A DNA stretch of 64,000 bases from assembly GCF_019879105.1 (NCBI RefSeq), contig NZ_CP082249.1, positions 2,728,001 to 2,792,000 on the forward strand, in the 5' to 3' direction. The notes beneath the pieces are model-generated. The model was not told where the DNA came from, ran no database searches, and worked only from the letters and a program-made list of their open reading frames with translations. Shown here piece by piece: positions 19,406 through 31,641 of the stretch. Source of the DNA: Natrinema sp. SYSU A 869 (GTDB lineage Archaea; Halobacteriota; Halobacteria; Halobacteriales; Natrialbaceae). A program made the position numbers and the translations under genes. Within the stretch, counting starts at the first letter, position 1. Every line of letters starts with the position of its first letter.

Positions 19406-20589
19406 CTACAACTGTTCCCAGACCGCTTCGTCGTCCTCGAACCCGCCCTCCTCGTCAGGCGCGGCGAACTCATCGCTCGGGTCGAGGTCCGAGAGCTCCT
19501 CGGTGGATCGCTCCCGATCGCCGTCGATGACGGCCGGCTGTTCCTCTAAGTCCATCTCCGGCCAGGCAGTCTCCTCCCAGAGGCCGCGGTCGCTGTAGTA
19601 GTAGACAACGCCGTCGTTGACGACCGCGAACAGCCCTCGTTGGGTGTCGTGGACGACTCGCTCGTTGGTATCGATCGCGACGTCGACGACATCCTCGAGC
19701 GTATCGAGCGAGACGTGGTAGTCGCCGATCCACATCGGGATCGACCCCCGAGAGATCCACTCGGAATACCGCTGTTCGTGAACCGCACGGCGAGCGACCT
19801 CGACGTCGGTCGTCGATCGGCGGGCGACGATCGCCGCCCCGGCGAACGAGAGCGTCCCGAGCACCGACAAGCCCCCGACGAGCGCCGGATTTCGGGACTC
19901 GGTCGTCCGCGTCGTGCCGCTCCGGTGACTGTGCGGTGCGGAGTTAGAGAGCGACTCCTCGAGCCAGTAAGCCTCCTCCGTAATCGTCACCGGCGTCGCG
20001 CTCGTCAACGTTCCCTGATGGTGACCCGTATCGTACTCGACGCGGAACTCCATCACGAGTTCGACCGAGCCGACCCCGCTGACCTCGCGCTCGAGTTGAC
20101 GCTGACGCTGCCGGTAGGATTCAACATCGATCGTCGCCTGTGACGTCGCGACGCCGTTTTCGACCGACTGGGACTCGCGGAGTACCTGATGGGGCTCGCT
20201 CCAGAACGTGGAGCCGTCGCGATTCGCTTCGAACCGAAGCACCAACTCATGGGTAACGTTCCCGTCCTCGATCGGCATCCCCTTGGTTTCGTTTCGCAAC
20301 CTCGTTTCCGGCTCGACCGTCAGTTCCGGCGAGGCGTTCAGAAAGTAGACCGAACTGTTCGAGAGCTCCTCGCCGTCGGTCCAGAGGGTGCCGCTCTCGG
20401 TGACGGTCGCACTCGTTCCGACGTCGGCCGTGACCCCTCCTCGTCGAACCGGGGCGAGGTCGTCGTCTCCGGGTTTGCGACCGCCCACCCGGTTGCACCG
20501 ATCGCGAGGAGACCGATGACTATCAGCGCGATCAGAATCGTCCGGCCCTGTTTCGCGAGTAACAACTCGAGACGCGGGTTATCGATCAT
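19406..20589 (-). CDS. DUF5305-type membrane protein, frame broken at 20434-20437
   Basis: The start (ATG 20589) reads M-I-D-N-P-R-L-E-L-L-L-A-K-Q-G-R-T followed by a transmembrane helix; this is the usual opening of the haloarchaeal DUF5305 family. The rest, in another frame, has a beta-rich extracellular domain, a second helix (about G-G-L-S-V-L-G-T-L-S-F-A-G-A-A-I-V-A) and a cytoplasmic domain ending in an acidic tail. Adding one G to G4 (C4 on plus strand, 20434-20437) joins P-R-F-D-E-E-G to V-T-A-D-V-G-T-S-A-T-V, giving 394 residues. It sits next to a signal peptidase and DUF1102 genes, its usual neighbourhood, so a role in secreting or assembling those proteins is inferred. Confidence 0.82.
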
Positions 20590-20728
20590 CCGTTATCCCC
20601 CGAGCATCGGTTTCCCATCCGACCATGCTCGGTGGCTGACCTGTTCGATTTCGAACTGGTCGGTCACCGGTATAATTCATGAATTAGTGAAAGAAACCGA
20701 CCAATATAAGCGTAGTGGCCTCAGGCGG

Positions 20729-21907
20729 CTATTTCCCGTTTCGGAGCCATTTGCGGAATTTTCGCTCGAGACGCGTCGACAGCGGGACGTGATCGCCGGC
20801 AGACCGAAACCGGATGTCGTTACTGCCGAAGATCACGAGTACGATTACGACGGCGAGCCCAACGATGACGCCGTTTACCGCCGCGATGGCGGCGAGCGGG
20901 TGCAGGTCGTGGAGCCAGAGCAGTACGGACGGCGGCAATACGGCGAGATATCGGTACTCACCGAGATGGCGCGTATACTCGCCCGTCTCGCCGGGAGCAG
21001 ATAGCGACACCGTGGTCTCTCCGCTGTCACGGATACCGATCGTCTGGCGTGGTGGGTTGGCGCTGATCCCACCGCTCTCTGCCTCGTGAGCGACCACGAC
21101 GGGCAGATAGCCAGTATTGTCGACAGTACGAGTGAGTTCTGCTGTCTCGCCGGGGGTGACGATCTGTGGGTTGTCGTCGGGCGACTCCGAACTGATGAGT
21201 TCGTACTCGGTCGTTCCCGACGGGACGACCATAGCTGCGGTCGCGAACGTGACGAACACGAGCAAGACGAGCCCGAGCGCGGTCCAGAAGGCGATCACGT
21301 TCTCGCGCGAGCGCGACCGTTTCGTTTCGCGCTGGGAGGGACCGAGCCGCTCGAAGACCGTTCCGAATCCGAGCATCGCGACGCCGATCGCGACCATGAG
21401 CGCACCGAGCCCGTTCGCGGACATCGTCGCCAGTCCAAACACCGACGCGACGGTGCCGGCGGCCGACGCTGCTACCCCTTGAATGGCCAAAACGACAGTG
21501 CCGAGATGTGGGATTGCCATCACGGCACCATGTGGCTGCCAGACTTCGGCGACGATCTGGCCCTCCGTGACGTGAGGTTCGCCGCCGTCCTGATCTGTAA
21601 ACGGGTTCGCGTCGCCTTTCGTGACGTACCCCTCCTCCGTCTCGCCGACCACGCGGTGGGTCGTCAGCCCGCCGTCGTGAAGCTCCCGCGCCTGGTAGAC
21701 GACGACGTCACCCTCCTCGACGTCGTCGGTGACGAGGCTGGGAATCGCCACGAACCCGTCGCCGGTGTCCATCGTCGGTTCCATGCTCCCGGAGGAGACG
21801 TACCCGAGCAGAATCGGCTGTCCGAGCAGTTGGCCGACCACTAAGAGGAGGACGGCCACCACGAGGACGAGTCCGAGCCCTCGCTTTGCGAGCCCGACGG
21901 CAGTCAT
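20729..21907 (-). CDS. Signal peptidase I (S26, SipW-like) with C-terminal membrane extension
   Basis: 392 residues. An N-terminal helix is followed by S-S-G-S-M-E-P-T with nucleophile Ser41, and by T-T-H-R-V-V-G with His84 in place of the bacterial Lys, the archaeal/SipW/ER arrangement; K-G-D-A-N-P at 97-102 completes the active site. Two further helices, then a short extracellular beta domain (about residues 230-320) and a final helix near 340-365 follow; the typical enzyme would end near residue 200. It cleaves signal peptides at the outer membrane face. Its place among DUF1102 genes suggests a dedicated enzyme for the secreted proteins of this locus, as SipW is for TasA in Bacillus. Confidence 0.88.
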   Translation of the reverse strand: MTAVGLAKRGLGLVLVVAVLLLVVGQLLGQPILLGYVSSGSMEPTMDTGDGFVAIPSLVTDDVEEGDVVVYQARELHDGGLTTHRVVGETEEGYVTKGDANPFTDQDGGEPHVTEGQIVAEVWQPHGAVMAIPHLGTVVLAIQGVAASAAGTVASVFGLATMSANGLGALMVAIGVAMLGFGTVFERLGPSQRETKRSRSRENVIAFWTALGLVLLVFVTFATAAMVVPSGTTEYELISSESPDDNPQIVTPGETAELTRTVDNTGYLPVVVAHEAESGGISANPPRQTIGIRDSGETTVSLSAPGETGEYTRHLGEYRYLAVLPPSVLLWLHDLHPLAAIAAVNGVIVGLAVVIVLVIFGSNDIRFRSAGDHVPLSTRLERKFRKWLRNGK

Positions 21908-22075
21908 GAATCAGTGGATGGGACTGTCATATTAGACTGACTATTCGAGTAGTCTACGTTTCGTATCCAGCAGTATAAAGGTCGCGAGAGCCAGGACCCG
22001 TGAGTAGCCCGTGAGAACGAAGAAATCGAACTGACAACGGTCATCCGGTGGCATGCACTGTCGGCTCCGACTGCG

Positions 22076-23248
22076 CTACGAGCGAAGGAGTGCCCACCGG
22101 CGATTCGCGGCGATCGCGAGGAACAACAGCCCCGCCAGCGACGGCGGGGCAAGTGCTGCCGTGGTCGCCGGCGAGAGCTCTCGATTCCGGATCGAGAGCA
22201 TGACTCGGTCGACCGTCACCGTCCCTGCAGTCACGCCGCTGACTGCGGTCTCGTAGGTCCCCGGCTCGTCGAATCGGCGCTCGAAGCTCACTGTCCGCTC
22301 GCTGTTCGCCGGGATCGAAACGGCCCGGCTGTCGACGACGATCCCGTCGACTGGCAGCTCGAGCGTGCGCGAGACCCGTTCGTCGGTCGGGTTCCTAATC
22401 GTCGCCTGGATAGTCGTCGACTCGCCGACGGTGATGTCGGGATCGACGACAGTCGCATCGACGATCTCGACCGGCGTCCCTTCGACGGTCACCGAGGAGC
22501 TCCCTGCCCCGTCGATACCGATGTCGTACGTGCCGGACCACTCCATCGTCCGCTCGAATGTGACGGTCCTCGATTCGCCGGACTCGAGGGTGATCGTCTG
22601 CCGGTCAATGACGATTCCATCAACCATCAGGTTCGCCGTCACTTCGGTCGTCGTGTCCCTGACGTTTCGGTACGTCTCCGTCACGGTTACCGTCTCGCCG
22701 GCCCCAACCATCGTCGGCGAGACGGTGAAACTCGAGCGTTCGATGGCCGATGATTCGGACGGGACCGTACCGCTCGAGCCCCCTGCAGACTGATCAGATC
22801 CGTTGTCGTCGTCCGCATATTGCACTGTGACCGTGAACGTCTCGGTCCCCGACTGCGCGACGTGGGTATCGACTGCGACGCCGATACTCGCCACGGTACC
22901 GGCCGACGGCTTGAGGGGACTCGATTCGCTGACCGTCGCCGTCCGCTGGTCGTTTCGATAGAACGTGAGCCCGGGCACGTCGTGGTCGATCCAGACCCGC
23001 TCGATGTCGTCGTCGGTGACGGTGATCGTGAACACGTCGTCCGCGCGAGTGATCGCGCGGTCGTTGAGGGTCTCGAGGTCGAGTGTTACTTCGTCGTCTT
23101 CGACTGTTGCGTATCGGGAGTCGGTCGGCTCGAGGGCGACACTATCGCGTACCGTGTCCTCGTTCACTGTAATCGCTACGGTCGGGACTGCGAACGCGAG
23201 GAGAAAACAGGCCGCAGCCGCGATGAGCAGGACCTTTGTGGATGGCAT
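22076..23248 (-). CDS. Secreted, membrane-anchored protein with DUF1102-like and CARDB-like domains
   Basis: 390 residues. Signal peptide at 1-26 (L-L-I-A-A-A-A-C-F-L-L-A-F-A-V-P-T-V-A). The N-terminal domain (about 27-145) resembles DUF1102. After a Ser/Gly-rich linker come two tandem beta-sandwich repeats of about 85 residues (both with V-x-V-G/A-x-G-E-x-x-x-V/I and a G-T-Y-x-x-x-V/I ending), the CARDB/adhesion type. A C-terminal helix (A-P-P-S-L-A-G-L-L-F-L-A-I-A-A) with basic residues after it anchors the protein in the membrane. Likely a surface partner of the DUF1102 protein immediately upstream on the same strand; its role is inferred. Confidence 0.75.
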   Translation of the reverse strand: MPSTKVLLIAAAACFLLAFAVPTVAITVNEDTVRDSVALEPTDSRYATVEDDEVTLDLETLNDRAITRADDVFTITVTDDDIERVWIDHDVPGLTFYRNDQRTATVSESSPLKPSAGTVASIGVAVDTHVAQSGTETFTVTVQYADDDNGSDQSAGGSSGTVPSESSAIERSSFTVSPTMVGAGETVTVTETYRNVRDTTTEVTANLMVDGIVIDRQTITLESGESRTVTFERTMEWSGTYDIGIDGAGSSSVTVEGTPVEIVDATVVDPDITVGESTTIQATIRNPTDERVSRTLELPVDGIVVDSRAVSIPANSERTVSFERRFDEPGTYETAVSGVTAGTVTVDRVMLSIRNRELSPATTAALAPPSLAGLLFLAIAANRRWALLRS

Positions 23249-23328
23249 TCGGTTTTCGTGGCACGGTAGCGATTTCTACTGAACAGTGAATAGCTCGAAA
23301 CAGGGACCGCTACCAGTCAGAACGGTAG

Positions 23329-23898
23329 CTAGTTCGCTATCAGTGTTAGAGAGCCACTAGTCTTGTCTACAGTAGACGAAGACGAAGTGGCTTCACTCCC
23401 CGTTCGCACAGTTGCGTTTACATCGACGGACGAAGTAGTGTCGGACAGCGTCTTCTGATTGCCGCTCCCGTCATCGCTGGCGAGTTCGAAATCGACCTCT
23501 ACCACAGCATCGCCGTTACTATCGGTTTCGACGACTATCGTTCTCGTCGCCGTCTGGCTTCCGGAACCGTCGCCGAATCCCACGGTTATTTGATTACCGT
23601 CTGCAGCGTTGTTAGAGAGTGTGAGAATGCCGTCGACGTTGGTCACCGCGTCGTCGTTAAACCCGTCAGCGGTGCTCGAGTCACCGAGATCGATTTCGAC
23701 GGCGTCCCCGCTTCCTCCGTTCACGGCGTAATTCCCAGTCACGCTGACACCCAGATATGCACTCGAGTCACCAGCGGTGTTGACGGTCACGGTCCGGTTC
23801 GCCTCCACGCTACTGAACGCGCCCGTTCCGAGCGCAGCGCCGCCGCCAGCAACAATCGTACCCAATCCGACTAACACATTACGTCGATTCATTCTCAT
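23329..23898 (-). CDS. Secreted DUF1102/TasA-like beta-sandwich protein
   Basis: 189 residues if started at ATG 23898 (another ATG is two codons later, 23892). The N terminus M-N-R-R-N-V-L-V-G-L-G-T-I-V-A-G-G-G-A is a Tat-like or SipW-type signal sequence ending near G-A-F-S-S-V-E-A. The mature part is low in aromatic residues, rich in Ser/Gly/Thr/Asp, and begins R-T-V-T-V-N-T-A-G-D-S-S-A-Y-L-G-V, shared with the protein at 28576 (T-T-V-N, S-S-A-Y-L-G-V). This is the pattern of haloarchaeal DUF1102 proteins, which are related to secreted fibre subunits. No anchor is seen, so it is probably released or polymerised outside the cell. Confidence 0.75.
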   Translation of the reverse strand: MRMNRRNVLVGLGTIVAGGGAALGTGAFSSVEANRTVTVNTAGDSSAYLGVSVTGNYAVNGGSGDAVEIDLGDSSTADGFNDDAVTNVDGILTLSNNAADGNQITVGFGDGSGSQTATRTIVVETDSNGDAVVEVDFELASDDGSGNQKTLSDTTSSVDVNATVRTGSEATSSSSTVDKTSGSLTLIAN

Positions 23899-24030
23899 GA
23901 TTATGATCACCGTTCCACGCCCCAGCACCAGCCCATGGCGGGTGCCGGAACGCAGTTCCTACTCACATCCACAAACCCCACCCCCTTTGTATTGAGTAAC
24001 CGGAACCGGCGAAAGATCGGCCATACGGTC

Positions 24031-24049
24031 GTTCAAGGCGGTCTTGAAC
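24031..24049. promoter_or_regulatory. Inverted repeat, candidate operator
   Basis: GTTCAAG, 5-base spacer, CTTGAAC, perfect. It lies between the two divergent fibre-locus genes; regulator unknown. Confidence 0.3.
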
Positions 24050-24300
24050 GTGTGTCTCCGAGCCTCGAGACGGACAAGTCCCGCCTGAAACGCCGCTAGT
24101 AGAGAGCGACTCGATGTGACCAACTCGCTACCGATGGTTGTTCGACCACGTCCCTCGAGCGGGGCTATTGGGAGAGAAAACCGATATGACGGGCCAGCGC
24201 TCTCATCTTCGAATTTGGCGGTCAGTGTTGGCTCGGTTCAGCGTGATCAAGTATTACTTGAGATAGTGGTTATCAATTACGATAGTAGAACTACCATGCG

Positions 24301-24312
24301 TATTTTTATATG
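24301..24312 (+). promoter_or_regulatory. TATA box of the pilin-like gene
   Basis: TATTTTTATATG, 32-43 bases before the ATG at 24344; the strongest A+T block in the region. Confidence 0.45.
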
Positions 24313-24343
24313 TACATTGTAGGTAGTAAGAGAATAAGAGCTA

Positions 24344-27300
24344 ATGGTGGGAGAAAGAAGTACATCCCAGGGTCGGGGAAGCGATTCTAGGGAACGAGGG
24401 GCGAGTCCGATCATCGGGGTCGTATTGCTGTTTGCACTCGTTATACTGGGTGCGTCACTGGTGTTCGTCGCCGGATCGGCAATGTTTGACGCGATTGAAA
24501 CGGAAGTGAATAACGAACAGACCCAGCAGTTCGTCAGTGAGACGGACCACAGAATCACGACGGCCGCGGTGACGGGGGAAGACCAGCCGCTGCCGATCGA
24601 CGAGATGCAGGGAGGGGAGCCGACGATCACGGACGATGGCAATATCTCCGTCAGATGGTTCAACGCGACGGATGGAACTCGCTGTTCGCCTGTCAAAGGT
24701 GAGCTACGCGCACTCGAGTTCGAACTTGACGGCCGGACGATTGCACACCAGGGTGGTGGCGTTTGGGAGCAGACCAACGGCCAGACCAGCATCGTTTCGG
24801 AACCCCAAATTGGGTACGACGGGGACAGGTTACAGCTTCAGGTCCTCCAACTCGAGGAGGGTGATTTCGGTGGTAGCGATCCGATGGCGCGAGCGAACCA
24901 TAGCGAGTCGACTAATCTCACTGACCGAATTAACAACGCCGCTGAGGGGTGTTCAACCGGGACTGACGTCAGTTTCCGGATCGAAGACAGCACGTACCAC
25001 GAGGGATGGAATCAATTCCTCTCGGATGCAGTCAATGAGGACAAGTACAGTAACGTCGGTATCGAACACAAGAGTTCCGAAGAAACCGTCGAGGTGAACA
25101 TTACGGGTATCAGGGAGCCAGTAGAAACCACGACAGTCGTCGTTGCGGAGGATCGGGGGCTCTCGGGACCCGGTGCGAACGAACTGGAGTACGAACAGCG
25201 ACTCAATCGCTCGCTCGGTGGCGGACCGAATAACGCTATCTTCGGCATTGAGGCGAAAATTGAGAACACGGGTGACGAAGACGAAACGCAGACAGTCACT
25301 GCATCGATCTGGGACGAAGAACTCGACACCAATCTGCTCGAGACGAACAAAGAAGTCACGATATCCCCGGGCGACCCGGAGGAACTCGCTGCCAACGATC
25401 TCAAGTTCCAACACAGCGAATACAAAGACGAGTTGTCCCACGGTGAGACCTACAAGTACATAATCGCGACCGAAGACGACAGGGCTGACGACCCGCCGGG
25501 ATCGTTCTACTTCGGCAACTCGGGTTCGGAGTTCAACGTGACCGAGGACGACATCGAAACGATGCCGACCGGTGACGGAAACGTCACTATCACTGCGGAG
25601 ATCCAGAATCACGGCATCGAAGAAGGTAACCAGAACGTGACCATCGATTTCGATGAGCACGATGTCACCGCGAACGAGACGGTTAGCCTCGACTACGGTG
25701 CGACCGGAACCGTCAGCTGGACGGTCAATAAGAGCGCCTTACCGTATGGTTCAAACGAGTTCGAGATCCGGACGGACGACGACGAGGCGACTGGGACGGT
25801 AATCGGGGAGGCGACTGGAGACGAGGGGGCGTTCATTGTCGTCGAGGACGAGGGCGTTGGAGGCGATCAGATCGTCGTTACTGGCGAACCGTTCACCGTC
25901 GACGGCGAAGTCGCGAGCACCTACGCCAGCGACGGCGAGACACGGGAAGTCAGAGTGACGATTCCGGAGGCCGGTGTCGACCGCACCGAACCGATAACGC
26001 TCGACAGCGGCGAACACGATACGGTCTCGTTCGACATCAATCCCGCCGACTACGACTTTGAATCGGGAACGGTATACGACTACGACATCGTCGCCGACGG
26101 CGAGGGACTGAGTGAGCAGGGATCGTTCTACGTCGGCGAACCCGGAACAAACTTCGAACTGTCGAACGGGAACGCCACAGTCGACGATGACACGGTCACG
26201 ATCACGACCGATCTCGAGAACACCGGCGTCGACTCCGGCTCACAGACCGCCAGTCTGAACCTCGAGTACCTCGACGAGATGCCCGACGACCTCGAGGGTG
26301 AGAATCCGTACGGAGACCTCTTCGAACGGGAAGTCACTCGGTCGTTCGGCGAATCGGATACCATCGAGCTGGAGCTCAACGAGAGCAAACTCCTCGACGG
26401 AGAGTATCGGGCGACGATTCGGACGGACGACGGAACCGAGACCATCGATTTCGTCGTCGATACCGGAATCGATCCCGGTCGAGTTGGCTTGGGTGAAATC
26501 GACGACGCGAATGTAACCGTCGATGTCGTGGGCTCACAGGTCTCTGGCAACAACAGACGCTGGAATTACTGGGAAGACAAATGGGAATATGTTCACCTCC
26601 TCGCGCCGATGACCCTGGACGTGGTCGCGAACGGCGGGACCGAACACTCCTTCGACAACCCGACCGACGGTGATAATATCAACACTGGGCCGACATGGCA
26701 GGACAAGACCGGTGACAGTTACACGTACAACTTCACGGTCGAAGATGAGACAGAACTCACCCTGCGGAATACCAGATATAGTCTATGTAACGACCGAAGC
26801 ACCGACCCCGACGAACTATCCCACTACTCGGATCCCGAAGACCGAGCGCTCGAGTGGTGTAACGACGTATCGTCAAATACCGAATTCGGTCCGATCGACG
26901 CGTCGCAGGGCGAGAACCTGCAGAACGTCCGCGTTCGGAGCGCCGAGAACAATACGATCCCGGCGCTTCCCGCGGGTGCGGACCAACAGATCAGCGCCAC
27001 TGAGGCCCTCGAAGAGCGAGGTCTCGTGAAAGACGAGGACGAACTCAATCTCGATTCGGGCGAGTTCGTGTTCCTCTTCGAGAATACGGCCGAGTGTGGA
27101 CGGGGGTGCGACGAGGACGATATCGACGCGCTCTGGGATGACGCGGTCGAGGCCTATGAACGAAACCCTCACCGAACTAACGACCCGGACTTCAACGATC
27201 TGATCGTCTACGTCGAGGTTGAGCGCGCGGGCGTCGATCCCGGAACACCCAGTATCACGATCATACCCGGCGGCGGCAATTCGACCGACGTCGACGCCGG

Positions 27301-27472
27301 CGACGGCCGTGACGCGGGCGGGGTTGAGGACGTGGATCCGACTCTTGAGGGCGATACCGACGAAGGGAGTTCGCCGTCGGTCGGAACTGGCGAGTCCAAC
27401 ACGGACGAGACGGACGGTGTAACGGGTGATACCGGCGTCGACGTCGACGCCGATAACATCGTCATCGGCTAA
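24344..27472 (+). CDS. Giant type IV pilin-like surface protein (DUF7289-like)
   Basis: 1042 residues. Residues 14-50 read R-E-R-G-A-S-P-I-I-G-V-V followed by a 24-residue hydrophobic helix, a class III (prepilin) signal with predicted cleavage after Ala20 or Gly19 by PibD-type peptidase. The ectodomain is very acidic, with Asn-X-Ser/Thr sites in number and three or more repeated beta-sandwich blocks (for example V-x-I-T-x-E-I-Q-N-H-G, V-T-I-T-T-D-L-E-N-T-G, each ending G-S-F-Y-x-G). Near 900-960 a DUF4114-like segment (F-V-F-L-F-E-N ... D-P-D-F-N-D-L-I-V-Y-V) precedes a Gly/Asp/Thr-rich tail. Normal pilins are 130-180 residues, so this is a minor adhesin-like member. Confidence 0.75.
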   Translation: MVGERSTSQGRGSDSRERGASPIIGVVLLFALVILGASLVFVAGSAMFDAIETEVNNEQTQQFVSETDHRITTAAVTGEDQPLPIDEMQGGEPTITDDGNISVRWFNATDGTRCSPVKGELRALEFELDGRTIAHQGGGVWEQTNGQTSIVSEPQIGYDGDRLQLQVLQLEEGDFGGSDPMARANHSESTNLTDRINNAAEGCSTGTDVSFRIEDSTYHEGWNQFLSDAVNEDKYSNVGIEHKSSEETVEVNITGIREPVETTTVVVAEDRGLSGPGANELEYEQRLNRSLGGGPNNAIFGIEAKIENTGDEDETQTVTASIWDEELDTNLLETNKEVTISPGDPEELAANDLKFQHSEYKDELSHGETYKYIIATEDDRADDPPGSFYFGNSGSEFNVTEDDIETMPTGDGNVTITAEIQNHGIEEGNQNVTIDFDEHDVTANETVSLDYGATGTVSWTVNKSALPYGSNEFEIRTDDDEATGTVIGEATGDEGAFIVVEDEGVGGDQIVVTGEPFTVDGEVASTYASDGETREVRVTIPEAGVDRTEPITLDSGEHDTVSFDINPADYDFESGTVYDYDIVADGEGLSEQGSFYVGEPGTNFELSNGNATVDDDTVTITTDLENTGVDSGSQTASLNLEYLDEMPDDLEGENPYGDLFEREVTRSFGESDTIELELNESKLLDGEYRATIRTDDGTETIDFVVDTGIDPGRVGLGEIDDANVTVDVVGSQVSGNNRRWNYWEDKWEYVHLLAPMTLDVVANGGTEHSFDNPTDGDNINTGPTWQDKTGDSYTYNFTVEDETELTLRNTRYSLCNDRSTDPDELSHYSDPEDRALEWCNDVSSNTEFGPIDASQGENLQNVRVRSAENNTIPALPAGADQQISATEALEERGLVKDEDELNLDSGEFVFLFENTAECGRGCDEDDIDALWDDAVEAYERNPHRTNDPDFNDLIVYVEVERAGVDPGTPSITIIPGGGNSTDVDAGDGRDAGGVEDVDPTLEGDTDEGSSPSVGTGESNTDETDGVTGDTGVDVDADNIVIG

Positions 27473-28000
27473 TTGTAGCGCCGGCGCAATTCGACTTTAT
27501 CGCGTCCGAACGAGACAGGATTCCTCCCGGTTCGCTCTCTTCGAGTGTCGAACTCGGTGGACCCGGGGCAGCGGTCGAAGAGACGGCCCCGAATACACTC
27601 GACACGGAATCCGACCGGCCGTGACCGATTGATCTCCCATGCGATCGCTTACGTCTCTCGGCCGTGGACTGATTATCGTCGGCGGGCTCGTACTCGCCGT
27701 CTCGAGCGTGAGGTTTCCGTCCAGTGTGAGTAGGGTACAGCAGTCAACGAACGGGTTGGAAGGGACGCCCCGCTAGCGAAACGGGCACTTGTCGAATCAA
27801 CAGTCTCGAGACAGGCGTGGGCCGTTGCAAGCGGGAACCGATGCCCGAAGAAACGTTGTGGACGGCACTATCGTCATGGTGATAGTTACCGATCTTTTCG
27901 AGAATCGGCCTGTGATCACTGTAGGCGGCTTCAGACGGTACGCGTTGATCGGCAACAAGCGTTATGTATCAACAGTACCGATAATCATACTGAACAGGGG
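27473..28000. other. Intergenic region with one small reading frame
   Basis: 528 bp between the pilin-like gene and the winged-helix gene. Apart from the small frame at 27639-27776 I see no gene. The 80 bases before 28001 are A+T-richer and should hold the promoter of the regulator. Confidence 0.45.
27639..27776 (+). CDS. Possible small or truncated secreted protein
   Basis: 45 residues, M-R-S-L-T-S-L-G-R-G-L-I-I-V-G-G-L-V-L-A then V-S-S-V-R-F. The pattern (short basic start, one hydrophobic helix) is like the signal region of the DUF1102 protein at 28576, so it may be a truncated relative. Could equally be chance. Confidence 0.3.
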   Translation: MRSLTSLGRGLIIVGGLVLAVSSVRFPSSVSRVQQSTNGLEGTPR

Positions 28001-28573
28001 ATGGCGACGACCAGCGAGAGCAAACCGAGTACGGCGGGGGAAACAGGTCAGGACGATCAGTCACGGGAAGGCGAAATTTTCGACCTGTTAAGCAATCAAC
28101 GCCGCCGGTACACCATTCACTATTGTAAGCGCGAGGGAGAACCGGTTTCGCTGGGTGATCTCGCCGAACACGTCGCCGCCTGGGAACTCGACAAGGAGGT
28201 CGAGGAGATTACGTCCGCCGAACGAAAGCGAGCCTACACGTCGCTTCAGCAGACCCATCTGCCGACGCTCGAGCGAGCCGACATTATCGAGTTCGACGAT
28301 CGGATGATCGAACTCACCGACGAGGCTGCCGAGTTAGACGTCTACCTCGATATCGTGCCCGGCGATTCGGTCCCGTGGGGCGTCTACTATCTGGGGCTTG
28401 CCGCCGTCGGCTCGGTCGTAATGGCGGGGCTGTGGCTCGAGGTAGTACCGACGGAAACGGTACCGGAACTCGGCTGGGCGACGCTGGTGTTCACGCTGTT
28501 TGGCGTCTCCGCGGTCGTCCACGCGGTACAGAACCGTCGCATGCGACTCGGAGAGATGGAACGGCCACCGTAA
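28001..28573 (+). CDS. Membrane-bound winged-helix regulator (DUF7344 type)
   Basis: 190 residues from ATG 28001. Residues about 25-112 form a winged-helix domain with the DUF7344 signature: E-I-F-D-L-L-S-N-Q-R-R-R-Y, V-S-L-G-D-L-A-E-H-V-A-A-W-E, S-A-E-R-K-R-A-Y-T-S-L-Q-Q-T-H-L-P-T-L. Two transmembrane helices follow (about 126-146, 156-174). A membrane-tethered DNA-binding protein next to secreted-protein genes suggests it controls this locus in response to the envelope, which is inference. The stop is 2 bp before the DUF1102 gene start, so the two are in one operon. Confidence 0.85.
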   Translation: MATTSESKPSTAGETGQDDQSREGEIFDLLSNQRRRYTIHYCKREGEPVSLGDLAEHVAAWELDKEVEEITSAERKRAYTSLQQTHLPTLERADIIEFDDRMIELTDEAAELDVYLDIVPGDSVPWGVYYLGLAAVGSVVMAGLWLEVVPTETVPELGWATLVFTLFGVSAVVHAVQNRRMRLGEMERPP

Positions 28574-28575
28574 CA

Positions 28576-29424
28576 ATGAAGACACTCAGTAAACTGGCGG
28601 TCCTGTTTATCGCCATGGGAGCGGTGCTACTTGTGGGCCCAGTGTTCGGGTTCAGCTCGTTCGCTGCCGAGCGAGGAACGACCGTAAACATTCCCAGTGA
28701 CCAATCGAGCGCGTATCTGGGTGTCGACAGCGAAAACGACATCGGGACGTTACGCGGTGACGATCCGCCGGAACAAGTAGCGACGCTTTTCAATAACCTC
28801 AATGAGGATGTCGATATCATCGAGTTCGAGATCTACAACGACAGTGATGCGCTTGCGGTAGATAGCCCCAATCCCGGAGAAACGATCGCAACGGGAAGGA
28901 GCGAGGACGTCACGGTCGTCTGTGCAGACTCGGTATCTGCCGGCGTCCGTGATATCGGAGTCGAAGTCGTCGAAGTCGACGGAGCGACGACCACGATTAG
29001 TGGTGTATCGTTTAACACCACTGTTGACATTCAGTGTAACAAAGGAAGTGGCAGCGGTGTGGTTAATTTCGAGGCGGACAATGTCGGTACCGGGAACACG
29101 AGTCAGACGTTCTCGTTCAGCGGTGACGGGCTGAAGAACAACGACGACGTGTATATCAACGTCAGCGGTCCGCAGACGAACGGCGGTGTGGACTACACTT
29201 CCGGATCCCCGACCGTCGTCAGTGGAGCTGGCACGGTCAGTTACAATGGCGGCGACCAGATCGTTTACGACCCTGATGGCGGTGAGAGCGGAACGGTCGA
29301 AATCCGAATGGACGGAATCGATGTCGTTGGCAGCTCCGGCGAGCGATACACAATTACCTATTCCGAACAACGAAAGAACAGGAACGATCGCGACGACAGC
29401 GACATCTTCTATATCACGGATTGA
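28576..29424 (+). CDS. Secreted DUF1102 family protein
   Basis: 282 residues from ATG 28576. Signal sequence at about 1-31 (L-A-V-L-F-I-A-M-G-A-V-L-L-V-G-P-V-F-G-F-S-S-F-A-A), then E-R-G-T-T-V-N-I-P-S-D-Q-S-S-A-Y-L-G-V, the DUF1102 opening shared with the protein at 23329. Two Cys (C-A-D-S and Q-C-N-K) may form a disulfide. The second half is a Gly/Asn/Ser-rich beta domain ending in a basic stretch and D-I-F-Y-I-T-D. No membrane anchor. Co-transcribed with the membrane-bound regulator 2 bp upstream. Likely substrate of the SipW-like peptidase of the locus, by context. Confidence 0.8.
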   Translation: MKTLSKLAVLFIAMGAVLLVGPVFGFSSFAAERGTTVNIPSDQSSAYLGVDSENDIGTLRGDDPPEQVATLFNNLNEDVDIIEFEIYNDSDALAVDSPNPGETIATGRSEDVTVVCADSVSAGVRDIGVEVVEVDGATTTISGVSFNTTVDIQCNKGSGSGVVNFEADNVGTGNTSQTFSFSGDGLKNNDDVYINVSGPQTNGGVDYTSGSPTVVSGAGTVSYNGGDQIVYDPDGGESGTVEIRMDGIDVVGSSGERYTITYSEQRKNRNDRDDSDIFYITD

Positions 29425-29508: not shown

Positions 29509-29826
29509 ATGTCGACCGAATCGATCAGCGACCGACGCGAGCATATCCGCTCGGTCAGCGTGACGGCGTTGTCCGCGCTACTCGGCGTCGGTGCAGCGCT
29601 GGCCTCTGCAACCTGGGTGGGTGTCACCGAGACGGCTGCGGAGAACACGCAGGCGCTCGCGTTCGTCGTCGGGGCGATCCTCGTCCAGTACGTCCTCATC
29701 AATATTTCGGGGATCTACGGCGAGGACGAGTTCGGGGCGAAACACTACCTGTTCATCGCGTTCATGACCTTCTCGCTGTGGTTCGTGGCGTGGGGAATCC
29801 TGCTGACCGCGGAGGTATCGGGCTAA
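29509..29826 (+). CDS. EMC6-like small membrane protein
   Basis: 105 residues with three hydrophobic helices (about 19-38, 49-66, 82-101). Length, topology and the L-I-N-I-S-G-I-Y-G region fit the archaeal EMC6-like family, relatives of a subunit of the eukaryotic ER membrane-protein complex that helps insert membrane proteins. The assignment rests on size, topology and position one base ahead of the RLI gene, an arrangement I recall from other haloarchaea, so it is moderate. Almost certainly co-transcribed with RLI. Confidence 0.65.
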   Translation: MSTESISDRREHIRSVSVTALSALLGVGAALASATWVGVTETAAENTQALAFVVGAILVQYVLINISGIYGEDEFGAKHYLFIAFMTFSLWFVAWGILLTAEVSG

Positions 29827-29827
29827 C

Positions 29828-31641
29828 ATGGCCGACGACAGCATCGCCGTCGTAGACCTGGATCGGTGTCAGCCGGACCGGTGTAGCTACGAGTGCAAGA
29901 ACTACTGTCCGCCAAATCGAACCGGCAAGGAGTGTATCACCCTCCGGGGCGAAGAAGCCGCGGAAGGCCAGCCTGAACAGATCCACATCTCCGAAGAGAT
30001 CTGTCTAGGCGAAACCTGCGGAATCTGCGTCGAGAAGTGCCCCTTCGATGCTATTGAGATCATTAATCTCCCGCAGGAGCTCCAAGACGAGCCCGTCCAC
30101 CGCTACGGCGAGAACGCCTTCTCGCTGTACGGGCTTCCCGCTCCACAGGAGGGCAAGGTCACTGGTATCCTCGGTCCTAACGGGATCGGGAAGACGACCG
30201 CCGTTCGCATCCTCGCAGGCGAACTCGAGCCCAACCTCGGCCGGCACGAGGAATCGCCGGGATGGGACGAGGTACTGGAAGCGTACCGCGGGACCGAACT
30301 CCAGGACTACATCGCGGACGTCCGCGACGGCGACATCACGATCGCACAGAAGCCCCAATACGTCGACCAGATTCCGAACAGTTTCGACGGGAACACCCGC
30401 CAGCTACTCGAGCGGACCGACGAGCGCGGGGCTCTCGATGAACTCATCGAGCGGCTCTCGCTCGGGCCCGTCATGGAGCAGTCGATCGACGACCTCTCGG
30501 GTGGGGAACTCCAGCGAGTCGCCATCGCGGCCACGCTCGCCCGGGACACGGACTTCTACTTCCTCGACGAGGTGACGCCGTATTTGGACATCGGCCAGCG
30601 CGTGACCGCAGCGCGGCTGATCCGCGAACTCGCCGAGGAAGAGGACAAGTCGGTCCTCGTCGTCGAACACGACCTCGCAATCTTGGACCTACTCGCCGAC
30701 ACGCTCCACGTCGCTTACGGTGAACCCGGCGCGTACGGTGTCATCACCCACCCAAGTCCGTTCGCAACGGGATCAACGAGTATCTCTCGGGCTATCTGGA
30801 GAACGAGAACATGCGGATCCGGCCGGATCCCATCGAGTTCGAGGAGCACGCGCCCCGCACCGCGAGCCACGCCGACGCGCTTGTGGAGTATCCCGACCTC
30901 ACGAAGAGCTACGGCGACGGCGAGTTCTCCCTCGAGATCGAGGGTGGGACGATCCGGGAAAACGAGGTGCTGGGCATTGTCGGCCCCAACGGAATCGGGA
31001 AGTCGACGTTCGCGAAACTCCTCACTGGGAACCTCACGCCCGACGAGGGCGACGCCGATCTCGACCTCGATATCTCCTATAAGCCCCAGTACGTCACCAT
31101 CGACCAGCATATGCGGGTCGACGCCTTCCTCTCGTCGATCACCGACCAGTTTGGGTCGTCCTACTGGAACACAGAGATCGCCCAGCCGCTCCAGTTAGAG
31201 CGGATCATGGAGCAGAACCTCTCGGATCTCTCCGGCGGCGAGCGCCAGCGGGTCGCCATCGCGGCCTGCCTCTCCGATTCGGCCGACCTCTACCTGCTCG
31301 ACGAGCCCTCGGCTCACCTCGACGTCGAACAGCGGGTTCAGGCCACGAAAGCGATCCGGCGCTACGCCGAACAGCAGGATGCCACCGTGATGGTCATCGA
31401 CCACGACATCTACATGATGGACCTGCTCGCTGACCGCCTGATGGTCTTCGACGGCGAACCCGCCGTCCACGGTCGCGCCGGCCAGCCACAGCCGATGCGC
31501 GACGGCATGAACGAGTTCCTCGCGAACCTCGAGGTCACGTTCCGCCGGGACGAGCGCACCTCCCGGCCGCGAATCAACAAGCCCGAATCGCAGCTGGATA
31601 GCCAGCAGAAGAGCGACGGCGAGTACTACTACGCGCCGTAG
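29828..31641 (+). CDS. ABCE1/RLI ribosome-recycling ATPase, frame broken at 30751-30753
   Basis: Two frames together make one 604-residue RLI. N-terminal Cys clusters (C-Q-P-D-R-C-S-Y-E-C, then C-L-G-E-T-C-G-I-C-V-E-K-C-P) bind two [4Fe-4S] clusters. ABC domain 1 has G-P-N-G-I-G-K-T-T and L-S-G-G-E-L-Q-R; domain 2 has G-P-N-G-I-G-K-S-T and L-S-G-G-E-R-Q-R. The first frame fails after G-V-I-T-H-P; one more C in C3 at 30751-30753 gives H-P-K-S-V-R-N-G-I-N-E-Y-L, leading into N-M-R-I-R-P-D-P-I-E-F-E. RLI splits post-termination ribosomes and is essential in archaea, so the break is most likely a sequence error. Confidence 0.93.

Follow-up and report, generated by a model that had tools for sequence, protein, structure and literature searches.

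We analyzed a 64,000-nucleotide stretch of the 5.67-Mb genome of the haloarchaeon Natrinema sp. SYSU A 869 (contig NZ_CP082249.1, positions 2,728,001 to 2,792,000 of the forward strand), referred to here as the window, and focused on a gene cluster at window positions 19406-29424. We propose that this locus encodes a Tafi-type pilus, whose subunits would be cleaved by a SipW-like signal peptidase, chained through N-terminal donor strands, and ordered as tip, shaft and anchor. We assign this reading a probability of roughly 0.8, based on which genes are present, on homology, and on a solved pilus subunit that the window pilin resembles in gene position and predicted fold. The fibre type itself is already known, as a structure from the same genus was deposited in 2025. 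Our analysis adds (i) the full gene set of this branch, (ii) the absence of TafA, (iii) a signal and donor strand that are fixed while the subunit body varies, and (iv) the tip-shaft-anchor model. An initial annotation, made from the sequence alone, had suggested a fibre-secretion locus of seven genes, all of which were found at the positions it gave. The features are as follows.

19406-20589, minus strand: DUF5305 membrane protein (PF17231, E 1.7e-51), frame broken near 20436
20729-21907, minus strand: SipW-like Ser/His signal peptidase with an additional beta-domain and membrane helices (TIGR02228, above cut-off)
22076-23248, minus strand: TafF-position CARDB protein, candidate anchor (CARDB, 8.3e-10; TafF N-terminus by profile comparison, 98.4%)
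23329-23898, minus strand: TafE-position pilin, proposed shaft subunit (NF052522, 1.7e-16; 9p0a, E 8e-17; synteny; AlphaFold model and fold search)
23773-23817, minus strand: proposed N-terminal donor strand FSSVEANRTVTVNTA of the TafE-position pilin (residue conservation; low model confidence)
23818-23898, minus strand: signal peptide (MR)MNRRNVLVGLGTIVAGGGAALGTGA of the TafE-position pilin, twin-arginine type (RR in 101 of 110 family members)
24344-27472, plus strand: giant DUF7289 protein with a type IV pilin-like N-terminus (PF23960, 2.8e-14)
28001-28573, plus strand: DUF7344 winged-helix protein with two membrane helices (PF24035, 2.8e-29; hydropathy)
28576-29424, plus strand: TafC-position secreted protein, proposed tip adhesin (NF052521, 4.5e-8; TafC N-terminus by profile comparison, 98.3%)

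The minus-strand genes run in the order pilin, CARDB protein, SipW-like peptidase and DUF5305 protein; on the plus strand the giant DUF7289 gene precedes the DUF7344 winged-helix gene, directly after which lies the TafC-position gene.

The pilin matched the NCBIfam TafE model NF052522 with 60.5 bits, against a cut-off of 155. Its sequence also matched PDB chain 9p0a, mostly over the signal peptide; this entry, entitled "Structure of Natrinema sp. J7-2 Tafi pilus", was released on 2025-07-23. Because the 9p0a protein itself scores only 77.3 bits, the TafE cut-off excludes the Natrinema branch. Natrinema sp. J7-2 appears as Natrinema gari J7-2 in PMC10433800, and N. gari JCM 14663 encodes, at the equivalent gene position, a protein that agrees with 9p0a in all 215 residues. 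The N. gari locus keeps the order DUF5305-SipW-CARDB-pilin and also holds the regulator and the TafC gene. The window locus thus resembles that of the J7-2 pilus in gene position, neighbors, a near-identical signal peptide, predicted fold, and the absence of a full TafA, which N. gari also lacks; it differs in species and in the mature subunit, which shares only 27% identity with its N. gari counterpart. The 9p0a chain used by Foldseek has 188 residues, and by simple arithmetic (215 - 188 = 27) the Phe that follows GTGA may be where the ordered chain begins.

The initial annotation had described the pilin and the TafC-position protein as DUF1102 proteins that share an SSAYLGV motif. The motif is real and not due to chance, since it is part of a 31-residue N-terminal element that the TafE- and TafC-position families have in common (48% identical in a profile comparison). 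The Pfam label did not hold: neither protein matches DUF1102, and a genome-wide scan with PF06510 returned nothing at E 10. Judged by sequence, the correct family of both is that of the Taf fimbrial proteins. No match came from searching plasmids with the pilin, and no paper on Taf or Tafi fimbriae turned up in the literature collection searched, where the matches to Tafi were Salmonella and thrombosis papers.

We used an AlphaFold model of the pilin without its signal, predicted as a monomer, to compare folds. The model is all-beta, with a mean predicted local distance difference test (pLDDT) of 79.7, and its residues 1-7 are disordered (pLDDT <50). The best fold match is 9p0a (Foldseek probability 1.00, E 8e-4; Z 7.2, 127 residues, 3.9 A), and residues 1-14 fall outside the superposition, as expected for an exchanged arm. 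Because the alignment behind the model included the N. gari protein, the profile match to 9p0a is in part built in. AbpA, the bundling pilin of Pyrobaculum calidifontis (7ueg), came second (E 0.026, Z 6.8), although it is from another archaeal phylum and only about 9% identical in sequence to the window pilin. Chaperone-usher donor-strand pilins (Salmonella SafA) and the Sulfolobus thread ranked lower, and TasA (8aur) was a weak match at rank 19 (E 0.69, template-modelling (TM) score 0.28). The initial idea of a dedicated SipW-type peptidase with donor-strand fibre subunits akin to TasA and AbpA is supported overall by this fold ranking, by the gene position shared with N. gari and by the co-occurrence described below; in the structure prediction, which the initial annotation had proposed as a check, 9p0a stands first, AbpA next and TasA far behind.

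The TasA/TapA/SipW system of Bacillus subtilis likewise has a dedicated Ser/His signal peptidase. The TasA donor strand is AFNDI, after the cleavage site, with F29 and I32 making hydrophobic contacts (PMC9674648); the Phe is at P2' and SipW is required (PMC10269814). The window pilin similarly starts with Phe followed by Val three residues on (AFSSV), and we regard the common A-F-x-x-I/V as a parallel, not as proof. TasA differs in its weak fold match and in being Sec-exported, in contrast to the twin-arginine-type signal here, and no TapA homologue was identified.

Conservation among 110 family members separates the start of the mature pilin from the rest. The first mature residues are near-fixed (F1 in 103, V4 in 83, A6 in 102 and R8 in 103), while the body varies; a conserved N-terminal arm that is disordered in the predicted monomer is consistent with a donor strand. 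The same split is seen in identity to relatives: the signal is 88-100% identical to most Natrialbales orthologues, and the mature part mostly 21-57%. Within Natrinema, identity to the window sequences is 77-89% for the peptidase, 91-97% for the pilin signal, 27-57% for the mature pilin, and 28-36% for the TafC-position protein. Haloarchaea use the twin-arginine (Tat) route widely, and the arginine pair together with the low hydrophobicity of the pilin signal makes Tat export of the shaft likely. The CARDB and TafC-position proteins instead carry signals of strong hydrophobicity without an RR pair, suggesting Sec-type export. Two unrelated proteins from a regular-expression signal scan (L060:880 and L105:12607) were set aside.

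The CARDB protein corresponds to TafF, by a profile match confined to its N-terminal domain. It combines a signal, an N-terminal Taf-type beta-domain, two CARDB repeats and a C-terminal membrane helix, as expected from its initial description as a CARDB-like anchored protein. Its family has the body of the pilin family from column 16 on (98.1% in the profile match to the TafE body), without the F-x-x-V-x-A-x-R motif. The TafC-position family, conversely, has just the donor segment in common with the pilin family. The window member matches NF052521 below the curated cut-off and corresponds to TafC over the N-terminal part only; its AlphaFold model carries two beta-domains in addition to the signal and donor motif. 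Such proteins combine a constant N-terminal domain, marked by two invariant cysteines, with an exchangeable remainder: beta-helix-like repeats, a laminin-G-like domain (canonical TafC), or the beta-domain of the window protein. A tip adhesin would be the natural reading of this architecture. Integrins and adhesins were neighbors of the model in the fold search with low overall TM-scores, and we took them just as immunoglobulin-like domains; a weak PCNA match (E 0.05) was put down to chance. We note that many TafC-position proteins, such as the product of L083:851-1948, have as their variable half a regular repeat (GGDVTV-NN-) reminiscent of a bactofilin-like beta-helix, and that domains of this kind swap between close relatives.

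Co-occurrence across haloarchaea, another check proposed at the outset, was assessed in 145 genomes, with gene calls from a simple script that could miss genes. A Taf-type signal or protein was found in 111, the peptidase in 117, and DUF5305 in 118. Taf-type signal and peptidase were present together in 109 genomes and both absent in 26 (Fisher 1.7e-19, shared ancestry uncorrected), and DUF5305 lay within 10 kb of the peptidase in 136 of 150 listed copies. Of the 80 named loci, 74 contained DUF5305, 72 a pilin-type gene, 69 the winged helix and 58 the CARDB protein, and 29 had a TafC relative similar enough to be recognized. In sister loci of other haloarchaea, TafA, TafC, TafE and TafF score above the NCBIfam cut-offs beside a SipW-like peptidase, DUF5305 and the winged helix. 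The window thus has the TafC, TafE and TafF homologues of the NCBIfam Taf system with its SipW, DUF5305 and DUF7344 neighbors, but differs from it in three respects: (i) TafA is missing, (ii) the anchor has CARDB repeats instead of a glycine-rich linker and several membrane helices, and (iii) the tip has another C-terminal domain in place of the laminin-G-like one.

Two further loci were seen in this survey. The same genome has another, smaller Taf-like locus at a distance of about 1 Mb (L003:6510-11348), with a SipW-like gene, a TafE-like gene without an obvious in-frame ATG, a winged helix, a TafC-like gene with an RR signal, and a split DUF5305 gene. Another haloarchaeal locus (L077:1971-12054) has many tandem Taf-type genes (174-536 residues) ahead of its CARDB and SipW genes, as if subunits had been duplicated or swapped.

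The peptidase, of the ER/archaeal S26 type, scores 66.7 bits against the TIGR02228 cut-off of 51.85, and Ser40, His83, Asp98 and Asp104 are invariant among 27 homologues. Its C-terminal half is predicted from hydropathy to form an outside beta-domain between membrane helices, in agreement with the Ser/His peptidase with extra domains described initially. The Bacillus SipW model NF046067 matches at 9.4e-11, far below its cut-off, and we therefore call the enzyme SipW-like only. Weaker S26 matches occur elsewhere in the genome, which therefore probably has other signal peptidases besides the two SipW-like enzymes. The DUF5305 protein, also recognized in the initial annotation, has N- and C-terminal membrane helices flanking an outside beta-domain. 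Its listed frame is 19406-20488; the true start is the ATG at 20589 in another frame, and a one-base deletion (a missing G) near 20436, in a run of four Gs (20434-20437), splits a gene that is intact in relatives. The genome's other DUF5305 copy, near position 10700 of L003, is likewise frame-split. The neighboring gene for ABCE1 (RLI; 29828-31641), a ribosome-recycling factor essential in archaea, is in two frames (456 and 276 residues), compared with one frame of 604 residues in relatives. Since both DUF5305 copies and an essential gene are all frameshifted, these frameshifts are probably single-base assembly errors; we considered slippage or phase variation at the four-G run less likely.

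From these observations we infer a donor-strand step, a subunit order, export routes, and roles for a platform and a regulator. A twin-arginine-type signal would direct export of the TafE-position subunit, whereas Sec-type signals would serve the CARDB and TafC-position proteins. Removal of the signals by the SipW-like peptidase would free the N-terminal strand FSSVEANRTVTV, which would then fill the open beta-sandwich of the next subunit, so that a chain forms by donor-strand complementation. Because the donor segment is common to the TafC-position protein and the pilin, and the body to the CARDB protein and the pilin, their sequences suggest (i) a donor-only tip with exchangeable C-terminal domains, (ii) a repeating shaft of subunits with both donor and acceptor, and (iii) an acceptor-only anchor held by its C-terminal membrane helix. 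DUF5305 and the outside domain of the peptidase may form an assembly platform. The DUF7344 protein, whose two membrane helices fit the membrane-bound winged-helix regulator proposed initially, is probably such a regulator and would act on this locus. A more specific version, in which the shaft is exported already folded through the twin-arginine route, SipW cleavage acts as the switch that releases the donor strand, and the sequences of tip, shaft and anchor set the direction of the pilus with no need for a chaperone or usher, is one we advance tentatively.

Several points weigh against a Tafi pilus at this locus. The pilin falls short of the TafE cut-off (60.5 of 155 bits), the structural scores of its fold matches are moderate, the co-occurrence statistic is uncorrected for shared ancestry, and this assembly has a broken DUF5305 frame. 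In addition, NCBIfam labels TafE an adapter, not the main subunit, and no canonical or full-length TafA was found in N. gari or in the window genome, where matches were limited to the signal peptide or N-terminal part. Hence, the TafE-position protein might be just a minor adapter, with the main subunit encoded elsewhere or the fibre missing because TafA was lost; N. salsiterrestre and N. mahii, with a full TafA beside the TafE-position gene, would fit. However, N. gari is also without TafA, yet its protein at this position is that of the 9p0a pilus structure, and we consider the adapter explanation unlikely. Alternatively, Taf proteins could be secreted, fast-changing surface or matrix proteins that are processed by SipW and do not polymerize, given that their mature parts diverge fast and that some species have many paralogues per genome. 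Synteny with a solved pilus subunit, the fold match to donor-strand pilins, and the conserved N-terminal arm all favor a pilus, and make this second explanation highly improbable.

The giant protein at 24344-27472 (1,042 residues) was rightly described as pilin-like in the initial annotation, as it combines DUF7289 with a type IV pilin N-terminus and a class III (prepilin) signal. As a core part of the fibre it was rejected, because the gene is present in only 11 of the 80 named loci, and we class it as accessory. The idea that it forms the fibre itself, as a type IV pilus or adhesin, with the Taf proteins as its accessories draws on that class III N-terminus and on the location of the gene between two Taf transcription units, and is hardly credible for a gene missing from most homologous loci and a protein that greatly exceeds type IV pilins in size.

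A gene for an EMC6-like archaeal membrane protein (29509-29826; PF19094, 1.5e-26) separates the Taf locus from ABCE1, and this neighborhood is preserved across Natrialbales loci.

With the Tafi pilus reading, an archaeal pilus that is solved but little described is now tied to a full and widely conserved gene set of peptidase, DUF5305, anchor, tip and regulator. In Natrinema lacking TafA, the "adapter" gene would supply the pilus subunit. The contrast between a fixed signal and donor strand and a quickly changing subunit body suggests that viruses or partners exert pressure at the cell surface, and the donor/acceptor split offers a testable model for how fibres may be capped and anchored without a chaperone-usher machine.

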